From Diadema setosum (taxonomy: Eukaryota; Echinodermata; Echinoidea; Diadematoida; Diadematidae): a stretch of 64,000 bases of DNA. Made by a program: the position numbers and the translations under genes. The notes beneath the pieces were generated by a model that worked only from the letters and a program-made list of their open reading frames with translations, had not been told where the DNA came from and ran no database searches. The number at the start of each line of letters is the position of its first letter. Position 1 is the first letter of the stretch. The stretch is taken from assembly GCF_964275005.1 (NCBI RefSeq), contig NC_092688.1, positions 19,314,403 through 19,378,402 on the forward strand. The letters are read 5' to 3'. This document shows, one piece after another, positions 44,601-50,600 of the stretch.

Positions 44601-47600
44601 GCACGGTACCATACACGTAACCTTGAGACCACATACGTCCCACCTCTCTTGTCTAAACACTGCGCGAGGCGAGCAATAAAGACGACCACTAAATTTCGGT
44701 AAACATGGATGGAGGACCACTGATCTCATTTTAAATATAGATCGCTCTTCACGTTTTGGGGGAGGCACTCAGCACGAAAGGAGGCACTCATTCATGGCTG
44801 ACCCATTCTGAGAGGAGGCGCCCACTCCTAAAAACTCTAGTGGTGAGGGGGTGGGGAGACCCGTATTACTAACATTTTTAGGAATGCCCGCCTAGTGCGG
44901 GCGCACAGCATGGGGGGCGCTCTCCACTGTTACACCGGGAAGAACATGACCTCCTTGGTGGAGATAACAGTTTCTTTAAAAAAAAACAAACAAACAAAAA
45001 ACCTGAAAAAAAAAAAAACTATTTTGAGTCAATATTGTATGTCATCAAGGATAATGGAAGTATGTCAGGAACAGTTTGAAAGCATTTGTGTATTTTGATA
45101 TATGGTCAGTTTTACGGTAAAGGGTGTAACTTTCAATTTTTAGCCTTTTGGCCCACCCTGAACACATAGATTTACAGATCTCAAAGATTTTTTCACATGT
45201 GAGTCACCTCATGAGTAGCCACCTTGGGTAACATAGTCAGGTCCAGGTATTGATGCATTTTGTTTTGACAGTCACATATGTACCCTAAAAATGACCATTT
45301 TGTCGCATTGAAATTTATGTACAATTTTTGAAGTGTTAATAATTTTCTACAGCAACTGTAGAGATCTAATTTTTTATGTTAAAAGCATAGTTGTATGGTC
45401 AATTGAAATGACCAAATTAGTTTGGTTGGTAGCTGGCCCTGTATTTTAGAATACTATGTCTTCAAATTTGAGGTTTCGGAGGCTTCTTTTTCCGTTAACA
45501 ATTGTTAGCAAATTTTGATGGACAGTAATGATTAGAGGATGTGTTTTGGTTACTTACTTTTATGCTGAAAATAGTAAGGTATAGTTAAACTTTAGACTTA
45601 TATCAAAGTTTACTTGATTCTACGGCTATTTGAAATTTTGTGATGATTTTACTTCATCGAGTGAAATTTCCGTTAGCAGTTTTGAAGCCTCCGAAACAAA
45701 ATGTTTAGTCAAATAATATGAATATAGATAAGAGAAGTGACCCAATCTATATGTCAAAAAGTAGGATATGGGGCCCTAACCAAATAAACCAAAAATAGTT
45801 AGGATCCGCCAAACTCTCTGAAAATACGAGACAATACAAATTTTCCGTTAACACGTGAAGCCTCCGAAACACATTGAAGCCTCCGAAACAGCAAAAACAT
45901 CTAATTTGACATTTCTGATAAATTCTTTGAGTGTCTGCCCCAAATTATGCCATGAAATCATCAACAGACATGGACAGACAACAAAAATAATTTAAAAAAA
46001 TATGATATTGCAATAATTTTTTGAGCCAAGACACTTTATAGAGAAAAAGTGGTTTCGGAGGCTTCAAAAGGATGTTAACACTGCATTTTTGTGATTTTCT
46101 CTGGATAAAATCAAATTAGATTTATTGTTCACCCACCCAATGATCATTTATGACATATCCAAAGATATTTTATCACATTCAATTTTCTGGCTGCTTTGTT
46201 TACTCACCAATATAGATTTACTATACGATTTACCTATTTTTCCTAAACAGTGCAGACGTGTCATACATTACTCACCTCTTCATTCGGCAATGAAATATTG
46301 GCAGATGAGGATGTTGGCCCACAAATATGTTTTAACAGTGTATATCAACCAAAAAAGACACAATTTACCCATCACTTTCCACATAATATACATAATTTTC
46401 ATAAAAACATAAGGCATACCGAATTAATTTTCCAGATGTTTCGGAGGCTTCATTTTATGTTAACAGCATGTAAATGGAATGTTTTCATTACAATTTTGTA
46501 ATTCTAAGTCTATTAAATAACTGTTTGGACTGAATGAGACTTGATGGTTCATCAAGCAAGGTGTAGATAGTTGTTTAAATGTGTGAAAAGTATTTATTTT
46601 GTAGGTTTCCTTTTGAAACAATGGAACAGGCTAGATATTGTGAGTAATGAAAGTGACTTCAAGCTTGCGTACATGCCCACATCATGCAACAGTAGTGCAA
46701 CAAAGCAAGTAGTTGTGGACACATCAATGTTCTTAAGTTGGATTTTATAACTCATTTTGTACTCTTGAGAGAAGTTGAAGTGTTGTTTACCATTTTTGTA
46801 TCACTCTTTCGACTGGTCAGACTTAAAAAATGAAGACCAAATAATCACTTGATTATTTAGTGTTAAATACACTATTTCCTTTCTCTTTTTGTTTTTGTTT
46901 TTTTTTTTTGTTGAACTGAACACTATTCCTGGGCTGAAGATTCAAGGACTTTAATAGATGGATATTCAAGAGGGAAACATACACAAAACTAAGAAATATA
47001 TTACTTTTGAATTTAAGGTTGTACTTTTACTGCATGATCAAAAGCAAATGGTGGAAAATAAGGTACTTTTTGGGTTTTTACACTTTTGACTCACTACCAT
47101 AGATCTGAGTGAATAGGTTCGAAACACGATCTTTTACATGTTCATTTATAACCCATTGACAAATCCATTCCATTGTTACTCACATGGCATTTGTTTTTGG
47201 TATACTAAAATCTGACTTTTTCAGCTTTCCATTTCCTAACAAGTTCTTTGGCTTTCATCTCCAATACTTATTTGGAGGAAAGTAATCAATAAATTTGTGA
47301 TTGGATAGAAAATAGCTAACATCTTGCAGATTATCATTTTTGTGGTGTGACTTGCATCACAGAGTACTGTTTTGGAATTTTTACATTTGATTACTTCTCT
47401 CAGACAGGTTTTAATGTCAGTCTGTATGTCATATCTGATGCATGCTAGGTGCAACACAATCTTGATACTATCACTGTACTTTTCCATATTTTGTCATGCT
47501 GGCAGAACCACTTGACTACATGTACTTTTGAGCAAACAAAATGTAGCTTATGTTACGAAACATCTTTTCTCATACATGTGTGAGACTCTATGACATGTGA

Positions 47601-50600
47601 ATGTAGTTCCCAATGAAGTAAACAGTGTATGGATAGTAATGGTTGTGATAGGATTGTTAATAAATGACATATAGACCTCTAAATAGCCTGTTGCTGTGGG
47701 TACATGTAGTTTACATGGGTGGGGTGACTGGAGAAGTTATGTTCATGAAGAACAATATTGAAATGATTGAAATCTTTATAGTTTGTTTAATCCTGGCTTT
47801 TCTGGGAAAAAAAAAGTTACAACCCTCTACTGTATTTTGAAATTCAAAGGGTTTAAACTGTTGTCTGTGGGTTTATATTCTAAAGCAAACTTAGATATTT
47901 AAACACAATTGCTGCTTTTTAATCTGCTTTTCCTAAAAGGTTGTCATTTTTAGAAACAGTAAAAGTTCTGTTAGTAATTTCTCAATGTGTTACTTTAAAA
48001 AACGGGCCTCCTAGCTGTCACAGGAGTCACACAAACTGGAATTTTATATAATTATTTAACTACAAAAAAAAGCCTTTGAAGCATAAAAAAATAAAAAAAA
48101 ATGATATGAAGCAGAGGTGACTTGTATACCATAGAAAAAGATAGCAAAATTCTAAGTATCATATATTATAGGGAAATATACATTTGGTCAACATTTTTTT
48201 AATTCAAAATTCATACACAATCATGGGTAGGGTATGTATCTTTTCAACAGGCGATTCAAAAAGACGAATAGGATCTTGACCATTTTATTTTCTATCTCCA
48301 TGATAATATAACCCATATATTGATTATTCCGACTCCATTTTTTCAGTTTGATGATAACCCTTACAATGTTGTACATGGAATGGCTGATCGGTGTTTAAGA
48401 TTGCTGTTCTATAACCATGATCATTGCATTTGAAAGAGCTCTATGAGGATATCAGCCATGGTCCATATGCAAAAGAATGTTTAAAAGTCTATCAGCCACA
48501 GTCCATAATATGCAAAAGAATGTTTAAAAGCCTTTTTTCCCCTTTTTATATTTTACAACACTATGTTGTAATCACATACTCTACAATTATGATGGGTGGT
48601 TTACGTGTTTGTCAATATACATCCCACAAACTGTCCTTATAAAATACAAATAAAGCAAGCAAACATTATCTTTGCATTAAGTCTGAGCTGCAGTTGAACT
48701 CCTTGAAAGTAATCCTTTCTGCATTATGGTGAAAAGTTTGATGAATGCAGACAGCTATACATGTGTGTAGCCTACCCATGTTCTGCATTGCCAAAGTCAT
48801 GGATATACACATGCAAATATACAAATGAGCATAAAGATTTAAAATCATATTTTCTTTGTTTCTTAACATAGTTTATGTTGGAAAGTTTTTTTTTTCTGCA
48901 TACAAATACATACTATTTTACATGTTACAACATTGTTAGTTAATTGGAAACAATCATCTGCATTAATGTACTTCATATATTTATTATAATGGACATTTTT
49001 GGCATGTTAACACTTATGACGAAGCCTCCGAAACATGCGTTGCTGCTAACTTTAAGCCGCCAAAATAGGTGTTCCTAATCAGTGTACCTTTATTGCTACT
49101 GTTGCAGTTTCCCTTAGAATCATAATGCCACATGTAATGTCATAAATTCGAACTGAGGATCGCTCAAAGTGTGTACAGTTTGTTATTCACTTTTGTGGAA
49201 GCCAATTTCCTAATAATAATAGGTATGAAGAGTAAACATTATGCACTGCCATAAAATGTACATCTGTATACTGTTATTCACATTTTATTGATGCCCTGTT
49301 GTTATTCTAGCATGTTGTGATAGTTGTTTACTCTAGTTTTCTTATTCTAAGTGAATACTGGACTAGAACTTTGTGTTAACAGTTTTGAAGCCCCCGAAAC
49401 ACACTAGTTTGTTAACTGAAGCCTCCGAAACACACAAGTCTGAAAATTTCAACTTTGTTAAAAATAATTGAATTTCTTTGGGATTTGGATTGATAAATGT
49501 TTGTTACCAAGAGATAATTTGAGGCTATGTTTAGAGTGGCTCTTCCTTCTAGAACATTCTTTTAACTTAAAAAGAGTTTGTCAGGTACCATTTTTACCTT
49601 GGAATTTGAAGTTCACATTCAAATAATTGCAAGAACGAATATCTGTCTGGGGAAAAGTGTTTTGATATTTCAAATATAGAATGTTCACAGCAAATGAAAA
49701 GTTGCATTGCATCCACCATTTATCTTCATTTGGTCGCTGTGGGTGACCAAAACATTCATGTTGTTTTTGCCTGAATTTATCTAAAATTCCATATTAGTCA
49801 CTTAATATTTCATATTTAGCCTAAGAATTAAGCTCTGGAATGACAAAATATTGAAAATATAGACATTCCTATATAAAATAAAGGCAAAAATAAATGTGGA
49901 AACATAACTTTAATTTTTGACCCTTGCCACATCAAAGTTACACCCTTTACTGTAAAACTGACCATATTCTGAATTGGATTCGGCACTGTGTTTGTGTGAA
50001 TGATTCAGTGGTACAGATATTGATTAGAATGTAGAGACTTTATGATAATAGTGCTGAACAACTGCCTTCCCACTGATTTGGGTGGTGTGTGTGTGTGTGT
50101 GGGTGCTGTTAACGTTTTTCATTGATTTTTGTTTCCCAGGATGTGCTGTTTGTGGCAGACACAGCTAATGCCATCCTCAACTCCCTCCAAGACTCGTCCG
50201 TCAATGTTCGGATGAGGGCCACCTGGTCGCTAGGCAACCTGAGTGATGCCATGCTCATCAACCTGTGAGTCAGTCTTCCTTCTCATCACTTCATCTCCTA
50301 CTTTTACTTGAATATGATTAGTATATTAAACAGAATGATAGATACTGTTTTGTCTCTTAAAGGGGCATTCCAGACGATTTTCATAATTTCACACCATGTA
50401 GTACATAAATCGTCGGCTCGATTTATAGATTTGTGGAATTTATTGTGGTCCTTGAGCAGAGAAACCAATAAACTGAAAATCTTAAACAAATTACACTGAA
50501 CAGTGTTGATGACATCAGAGCCTCACATATTTCAGAAATGTAGCAGTGTCATTCCTTTACAATACCGCTTGCTCAACAAGTTCACCTGTGTATAATCTAT

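Follow-up and report, generated by a model that had tools for sequence, protein, structure and literature searches.

What is the large element with inverted ends that lies in this stretch of the Diadema setosum genome, and what might the array of a 14-bp motif inside it be for? The stretch analyzed (C4:19314403-19378402; 64,000 nucleotides, hereafter the window) contains, at positions 45104-49963, a 4,860-bp element bounded by terminal inverted repeats (TIRs), which we call element A, the corresponding family being family A. Comparison with its relatives elsewhere in the 912.7-Mb assembly (102 contigs), to which all genome-wide counts refer, showed it to be a transposon and suggests that its array belongs to a wider class of arrays with nucleosome-like spacing and concerted motif switches. 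The reading that we prefer, with a probability of roughly 0.6, is that these are trans-mobilized elements carrying nucleosome-spaced sites for a co-evolving DNA-binding protein, in the manner of CACTA/TnpA or VANDAL/VANC.

An earlier interpretation of the letters of the window (the sequence-only reading) had described a large non-coding element with 33-bp inverted ends, ATAT on both flanks and nine copies of GAAGCCTCCGAAAC. Its apparently non-coding character was confirmed, the longest stop-to-stop frame being 105 aa. The inverted ends are real, but the repeat of 34 nt (45100-45133 and 49934-49967, 97% complementary) includes the flanking ATAT, which is indeed present on both sides and is duplicated target rather than TIR. 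As ATAT is part of the target-site duplication (left, 45100-45103; right, 49964-49967, from 4-mer comparison across copies), the element proper extends from 45104 to 49963 and has TIRs of 30 bp (left, 45104-45133, plus strand; right, 49934-49963, minus strand), as delimited by the genome TIR pattern and inverted-repeat comparison. These two TIRs differ by one base and start with GGTCAG. A search for GAAGCCTCCGAAAC with up to two mismatches gave nine matches in the window, all in element A: the count of nine holds for sites, but only eight are exact, the site at 49387 being a one-mismatch variant (GAAGCCCCCGAAAC) with a T>C change seen in the window copy alone among 21 copies. None of 100 shuffled sequences reached nine, in agreement with the claim that the recurrence exceeds chance. 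Toward the left end lie motif 1 (45473-45486, minus strand; GTTAAC box at 45494-45499), motif 2 (45684-45697, plus strand; GTTAGC box at 45672-45677), motif 3 (45857-45870, plus strand; GTTAAC at 45847-45852), which forms a close pair with motif 4 (45876-45889, plus strand; no box of its own), motif 5 (46052-46065, minus strand; GTTAAC at 46074-46079) and motif 6 (46438-46451, minus strand; GTTAAC at 46459-46464). Toward the right end, all on the plus strand, lie motif 7 (49021-49034; GTTAAC at 49006-49011), motif 8 (the variant, 49387-49400; GTTAAC at 49375-49380) and motif 9 (49418-49431; GTTAAC at 49411-49416). The eight boxes are always 5' of their motifs, at 7, 6, 4, 8, 7, 9, 6 and 1 bp, within the 1-9 bp originally reported, and the clustering toward both ends, with no motif in the central 2.57 kb, was likewise as described. 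Rfam gave no match.

The TIR was searched for in the genome with up to three mismatches and with the reversed pattern as the control, and the DNA around every match was fetched. There were 61 matches, versus none for the control, corresponding to 26 pairs and nine unpaired ends, and further copies of the element do therefore exist. All 26 two-TIR copies are flanked by perfect 4-mer duplications (20 ATAT, 2 GTAT, 2 TTAT, 1 AAAT and 1 ATAA), with identical 5-mers in 0/26, and a 27th copy (L038), in which the right TIR is shortened, likewise lies between two ATAT. The joined flanks of one copy (L017) match window positions 2158-2255, 57385-57468 and 62578-62674, and also L025, across the junction, which demonstrates an empty site. 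Copy length was 4.84-4.95 kb in 20 of the 26 copies. Pairwise identity ranged from 90 to 99.8% among the 21 copies retained for analyses of identity and conservation (the 26 minus five with long inserts), and four copies (L019, L020, L023 and L028) are 99.8% alike, indicating that movement was recent. Family A is, on these data, a real, young, apparently non-coding transposon family. Among the less complete sequences, L045 (C14:24930000-24934770) is an old A relative that is about 65-70% identical at its right end; of its motif sites, one is intact (GAAG type, beside GTTAGC), one is degenerate and one is missing. In two unpaired A ends (L040 and L044), homology extends for about 365 and 317 bp and does not reach the first motif, and these are perhaps truncated copies or elements with another interior.

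The motif belongs to this family. Exact GAAGCCTCCGAAAC occurs 228 times in the genome (reversed control, 0), and 222 of these occurrences fall within 37 family stretches (L009-L045), as expected of the subterminal site array of a transposon and not of a motif scattered genome-wide. One further occurrence (L048) is a single site without family sequence, and the other five lie outside the fetched DNA, one of them at C4:31256819 among the matches listed; some of these five may belong to another A copy, a truncated one lying where a contig ends (C19:36261509). The sequence-only reading had also raised the idea of a host-bound array, in which a host protein uses the motif and the element is no more than the motif's carrier. 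Conservation of the motif beyond its flanks would suit this idea, but few exact motifs (at most 6/228) lie outside the elements, such that the idea is not supported, and the motifs differ between families of one genome; we consider it highly improbable.

Within family A, the motif is conserved like the TIRs and is private to its family. The minority fraction among the 21 copies was 0.0064 in motif columns, against 0.0232 at random (0/20,000 draws), with values of 0.004-0.006 in the TIRs. Variants shared by at least two copies numbered 2 per 126 motif positions, versus 385 per 4,663 elsewhere (p = 0.003) and 149 per 2,160 in subterminal non-motif sequence (p = 0.015), whereas the lower rate in the GTTARC boxes (1 per 48 positions) was not significant (p = 0.25). 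Element A is CpG-poor (observed/expected ratio of 0.28), yet the CpGs of the motif are kept: shared variants were found at 1 per 19 CpG positions in the motif versus 23 per 51 (p = 0.0015), with no significant difference for private CpG changes (5/399 versus 19/1,058). Fewer shared CpG variants, with CpG singletons alike, are expected if a filter acts between rounds of transposition.

Several other families have the same build with other motifs. Families A to D share GG..CC TIRs, 4-bp duplications and 8-10 copies of a private motif, the GG..CC termini being common to A, B, C, D and to A2, a sister of A described below; no mutual similarity was detected at an E value of 0.001 between A, B, C, D and the candidate family F (one copy each). 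Family B is nested in an A copy at ATAT (L014:1333-4029), with GGGCAAGTCCA ends and ten GTAATGTCCGTGACG within two mismatches, one of them 12 bp from the right end and more at steps of about 190 bp; a second copy (L046) has both ends and AACT duplications. Family C (2.68 kb) is also nested in an A copy at ATAT (L012:3260-5937), with GGGCATTTCC ends and eight copies of the core AACGTGAGTTAC. Family D, with GGGCAAGTCCAAGA ends and eight GTCCCATACGTAAG, is nested in a C copy (L051+L052, joint 1780-4541), where it is flanked by a TATA duplication, the empty site being present in L049. Family E is nested in another A copy (L043:807-3653). Exact motifs, counted genome-wide (control, forward plus reverse, in parentheses), numbered 117 (5) for B, 261 (0) for C, 1,020 (1) for D, 508 (3) for E and 890 (3) for A2, and the motifs of every family from A to F contain CpG. 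Candidate family F, for which membership is tentative, is represented in the window by a second and different element with an array, at positions 13608-14954: nine CRGTATWCGGTCA in both orientations lie between GGGTAA ends with TATA/TAAA flanks. It also contains a 484-bp internal repeat, the copies of which are 94% identical and offset by about 575 bp. The motif of the relatives of B (GTAATGTCCGTAACG, L060-L075) and that of E (GTCCCATACGTAAC plus a variable letter, L043) have the 3' half CGTAAC in common and differ in their 5' halves, which hints at a modular motif.

We compared sister families for the placement and spelling of their sites. When the left 1.4 kb of A was used as a query, seven short weak matches were obtained, and the four that were fetched (L053-L056) were all of one type, A2, a copy of which (L058) is 4,873 bp long with a TTAT duplication. 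The nine sites of A (starting at 369, 580, 753, 771, 946, 1332, 3926, 4304 and 4335) have counterparts in A2 at homologous places and in the same orientation (370, 580, 753, 771, 946, 1326, 3939, 4297 and 4328); A2 has two extra sites, one of them degenerate. The A2 spelling is GTCACCTCCGAAAC, versus GAAGCCTCCGAAAC in A: over the nine sites, the 14 letters match 9, 0, 0, 0, 9, 9, 9, 9, 9, 9, 9, 7, 9 and 9 times, so that three contiguous letters (AAG to TCA) are switched at 9/9 sites. Across the 37 A stretches we counted 222 GAAG and no GTCA, and across seven A2 stretches 41 GTCA and no GAAG. A genome-wide screen for other triplets at letters 2-4, placed 1-10 bp from an exact GTTAAC, covered C/G at letter 2 and G/T at letter 3 (A/T at 2 with A/C at 3 fell outside it) and gave one match of the first kind and two of the second, all three of which look like mutated A or A2 sites. 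The five left sites of A and A2 match within 1 bp, whereas the sequence between them is only 0.32-0.48 identical (left-arm inter-site segments in register, 0.45, 0.39, 0.48, 0.32 and 0.36; off-register maxima for the same segments, 0.32, 0.38, 0.32, 0.33 and 0.32), homology being visible in segments 1, 3 and 5, weak in segment 2 and absent in segment 4. On this alignment, A and A2 are old sisters in which the register of the sites has been kept over the first kilobase.

Two further comparisons gave the same picture. Between D and E (one copy each), 8/8 sites correspond, lying 0-8 bp apart when measured from the nearer end, and letter 14 differs at all eight, while the other letters among the first 14 differ at none or one. 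For B, 16 related loci (L060-L075) were picked from the weaker matches, with an identity of 0.47-0.57 outside the sites; letter 12 is G at 4/4 right-arm sites of B, and A in 61, C in 2 and G in none of the 63 called cells of the relatives. In all three comparisons, the places of the sites are held and letters are switched at every site compared. Concerted evolution by gene conversion among the sites, the binding protein remaining unchanged, would account for there being one spelling per family across sites, bar scattered single changes. However, site-specific flanks beside the switched letters are kept between A and A2 (e.g., tgttaacggaaaat), such that conversion tracts would have to be only a few base pairs long, and conversion leaves the constancy of 11/14 letters unexplained; we find it quite improbable.

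The distances between sites are also regular. Sites less than 45 bp apart were merged into clusters, distances were taken from the nearer end, and periods of 120 to 259 bp were scanned. The clusters lie, for the left and right arms respectively, at 376, 587, 769, 953, 1339 and at 552, 945 bp in A, at 392, 562, 753 and at 20, 200, 400, 760 bp in B, at 372, 555 and at 20, 199, 401 bp in C, and at 186, 352, 530 and at 31, 199, 406 bp in D. The 25 clusters pooled from A-D gave a Rayleigh length (R) of 0.868 at 187 bp, which none of 3,000 random layouts reached, and omission of any one family, or of the end-adjacent sites, left p at 0.0005, the floor of 2,000 draws. Single families gave p values of 0.003 (A), 0.0007 (B), 0.013 (C) and 0.036 (D), with best periods of 171-192 bp. 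At 187 bp, R was 0.86-0.91 (mean 0.90) in 19 A copies, a set that omits seven copies with long inserts, a deletion or strong divergence, and it was 0.96 in one more B copy, 0.89 in a 7.5-kb C copy and 0.91 in A2. Indel events per distinct substitution within A (left arm, 27/305; centre, 218/790; right arm, 40/248) look as if spacing were held in the arms, although simple runs in the centre weaken this contrast.

Such spacing might alternatively go back to a unit of about 190 bp with one motif that was tandemly duplicated several times, everything but the motif having since decayed. Duplication of this kind can be seen in B, in which the sites at 537/572 recur at 728/763 (191 bp, flank identity up to 1.00), in A2 (3727 to 3939) and in the 575-bp repeat step of F. 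In A, B and D, though not in C, a single arm nevertheless has sites in both orientations, which simple tandem duplication does not produce, the other flanks are near random (A, 0.31/0.29 versus 0.28; B, 0.36/0.34 versus 0.29), and the spacing is alike in A and A2 after great divergence. Given the near-random flanks and mixed orientations, tandem duplication is better seen as a source of sites than as, by itself, the explanation of the layout, and in that larger role we think it unlikely.

In the reading that we favor, that of trans-mobilized elements with sites for a co-evolving protein, the elements would be non-autonomous and move by cut-and-paste, a transposase supplied in trans cutting at the GG..CC ends and duplicating a 4-bp, mostly AT-rich target. 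The array would be an address for a DNA-binding protein from the element's own system, presumably transposon-encoded; this could be the transposase itself, or else a partner resembling TnpA or an anti-silencing factor of the VANC type. Counted inward from the ends, the sites follow one another at intervals of about one nucleosome repeat (187 bp), which would place them in successive linkers of a phased array, and the bound protein could keep both ends open and bring them together. With a change in the specificity of this protein, the sites of a lineage would be re-spelled in fixed places, and the families would become private. Three contiguous letters are the size of one zinc-finger subsite, and our guess is that the AAG to TCA block at nine sites corresponds to one such subsite of the reader protein. 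A long CpG-bearing motif at nucleosomal spacing, bound by a transposase-derived protein, is familiar from the CENP-B box of alpha satellite; alpha satellite with CENP-B boxes is satellite DNA, whereas the A-type elements are dispersed transposons.

The same array might instead be dispensable for cutting: it would recruit a factor, encoded by a transposon, that clears DNA methylation or silent chromatin, and a switch of motif would be a way of escaping host silencing. VANC proteins bind family-specific short motifs in non-coding VANDAL DNA, and these motifs evolve synchronously, according to passages of PMC10398659 and PMC5735166, and the arrays described there resemble ours in being private to families and in changing motif in concert between subgroups. 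The presence of CpG in all motifs from A to F, and its retention in the motifs of the CpG-poor element A, would also suit such a factor. By contrast, the VANDAL motifs in these passages, including those of VANDAL21, are densely packed, all point the same way and often sit in tandem repeats, with which they turn over, whereas the sites here are dispersed, occur in both orientations in A, B and D and keep their places while their letters change; repeated flanks were found only in the B and A2 duplications, and elsewhere site flanks mostly resemble one another no more than random pieces do. The fetched loci yielded no such protein. We regard an anti-silencing array of this type as possible but rather doubtful.

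Site recognition in the service of transposition has a parallel in CACTA/Spm-En elements, which, in the passages of PMC2613891 concerned, have a short subterminal motif in direct and inverted orientation, defective copies and, as in our proposal, a two-part recognition by a transposase and a protein binding the subterminal motif; in soybean CACTA, the spelling of this motif differs between two subfamilies. Element A has a subterminal array in both orientations, but cannot be placed in CACTA/EnSpm, in which the ends are CACTA and the duplication is 3 bp long according to the same source, as against GGTCAG ends and a 4-bp duplication in 26/26 copies; in addition, the sites here reach 1.4 kb inward at about 187-bp multiples, and no coding partner was seen.

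The search for such a partner covered the DNA around the TIR matches. A coding relative with the same ends, which the sequence-only reading had proposed looking for, was not found: the 26 two-TIR copies contain no frame of at least 130 aa outside the 9.2-kb insert of L034, and among frames of at least 120 aa around the nine unpaired ends (L037-L045, about 3-5 kb inward) none exceeds 154 aa, bar one of 314 aa in L039, which lies outside the matched part and, as the one frame of this set compared with Pfam, has no match there. The five longer A copies owe their length to other insertions: C in L012, B in L014, a BEL/Pao-like sequence in L034, 1.3 kb in L031 and 0.56 kb in L026. The insert of L034/L035 (C13:34355314-34369686) contains a BEL/Pao-like frame of 1,730 aa, with DUF1759 and an aspartyl protease in its first 774 residues, and an A2 copy with a wider gap (L059) has unrelated sequence inside, which we take from one frame to be LINE-like. 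A 7.5-kb class of family C (L049 and L050, 98.6% identical over 7.5 kb) was considered as an autonomous form and rejected, its longest inner frame being 118 aa; Pfam searches with 10 of the 40 L049 frames of at least 48 aa gave nothing significant (best E value, 0.078), and this class may have a gene split into many small exons. The extra length of a 10-kb C copy (L051+L052) is the nested D element.

A number of observations weigh against our reading. The DNA around the 61 TIR matches and 222/228 motifs yielded neither a transposase nor a binding protein with these ends or motifs. Motif singletons are also fewer (11/2,641 versus 932/96,215, p = 0.002; versus subterminal non-motif sequence, p = 0.009), which a filter between rounds alone does not predict. 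The fourth A/A2 segment (790-935) is no better in register than off register. For internal spacings taken without an end anchor, the best period is 201 bp (R = 0.905, 17 spacings), candidate F follows the 187-bp period more loosely (R = 0.63) and its inclusion brings the pooled R down to 0.81, and the degenerate extra site of A2, which was outside the pooled test, is off phase, its distance from the end being 1985 bp. Both B and A2 have tandem duplications, of about 190-212 bp. Right arms near 20/200/400 bp in B, C and D mean that these three may not be independent and may have an ancient common layout, although A alone and B alone pass the spacing test. The layouts of B, C, D, E and A2 are each drawn from one to three copies, and the identification of 187 bp with a nucleosome repeat is itself read from sequence.

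Other known groups fit less well. hAT elements have an 8-bp target duplication, versus 4 bp here, with 5-bp identity in 0/26 copies, so that the sequence-only reading was right to assign the element to neither hAT nor CACTA. Miniature inverted-repeat transposable elements (MITEs) are short non-coding TIR elements below about 600-800 bp, a size far from the 4.84-4.95 kb of 20/26 A copies. Sola2 elements resemble A in their short TIRs and AT-rich 4-bp duplications, including ATAT and AAAT (PMC3627910); one B copy has AACT, the passage on Sola2 in that paper does not mention motif arrays, and no coding copy with these ends or motifs was present among the fetched loci, no genome search with a Sola2 protein having been made. 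Kolobok elements, also of animals, have 5'-RR..YY-3' termini, as in A, A2, B, C and D, and 4-bp duplications that are TTAA-specific in the relevant passage of PMC9587614, whereas TTAA was found in 0/26 copies, which also sets piggyBac aside. KolobokP (PMC9587614), the coral TTAA MITEs (PMC2872659) and IS481EU (PMC10045372), as presented in the passages cited, were set aside on target duplication or ends. Full-text literature searches, only some of them directed at this question, mostly of non-subscription articles and without Repbase, yielded no recognized account of these families among the matches listed, nor any of a concerted motif switch at fixed dispersed sites or of nucleosome-spaced subterminal arrays. 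As for the surroundings of element A, an exon of a HEAT-repeat protein lies downstream, at 50140-50266, and the element is probably within an intron of this gene. Elsewhere in the window, a small, unrelated TIR element may occupy positions 21627-22471, where two inverted-repeat pairs with CGCGAAAATTTCCACTTTTACAGTA ends lie nested.

We suggest, as a tentative generalization to which we give somewhat less than even odds, that these families belong to a class of animal DNA transposons with a re-writable chromatin address, in which private motifs of 14-17 bp would be set one nucleosome repeat apart, starting at the ends and running inward, and read by a modular protein that switches specificity in blocks, the lineages becoming orthogonal while the layout is kept. 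The finding touches on two questions: by what means a transposase or its partner locates two distant ends in chromatin, and how a system that recognizes many dispersed sites can change specificity without loss of function. One genome here offers three sister comparisons with a fixed map and a switched spelling, together with a spacing rule that would predict the position of sites relative to nucleosomes, and the elements, since their motifs differ, would lend themselves naturally to distinguishing transposase binding from anti-silencing.

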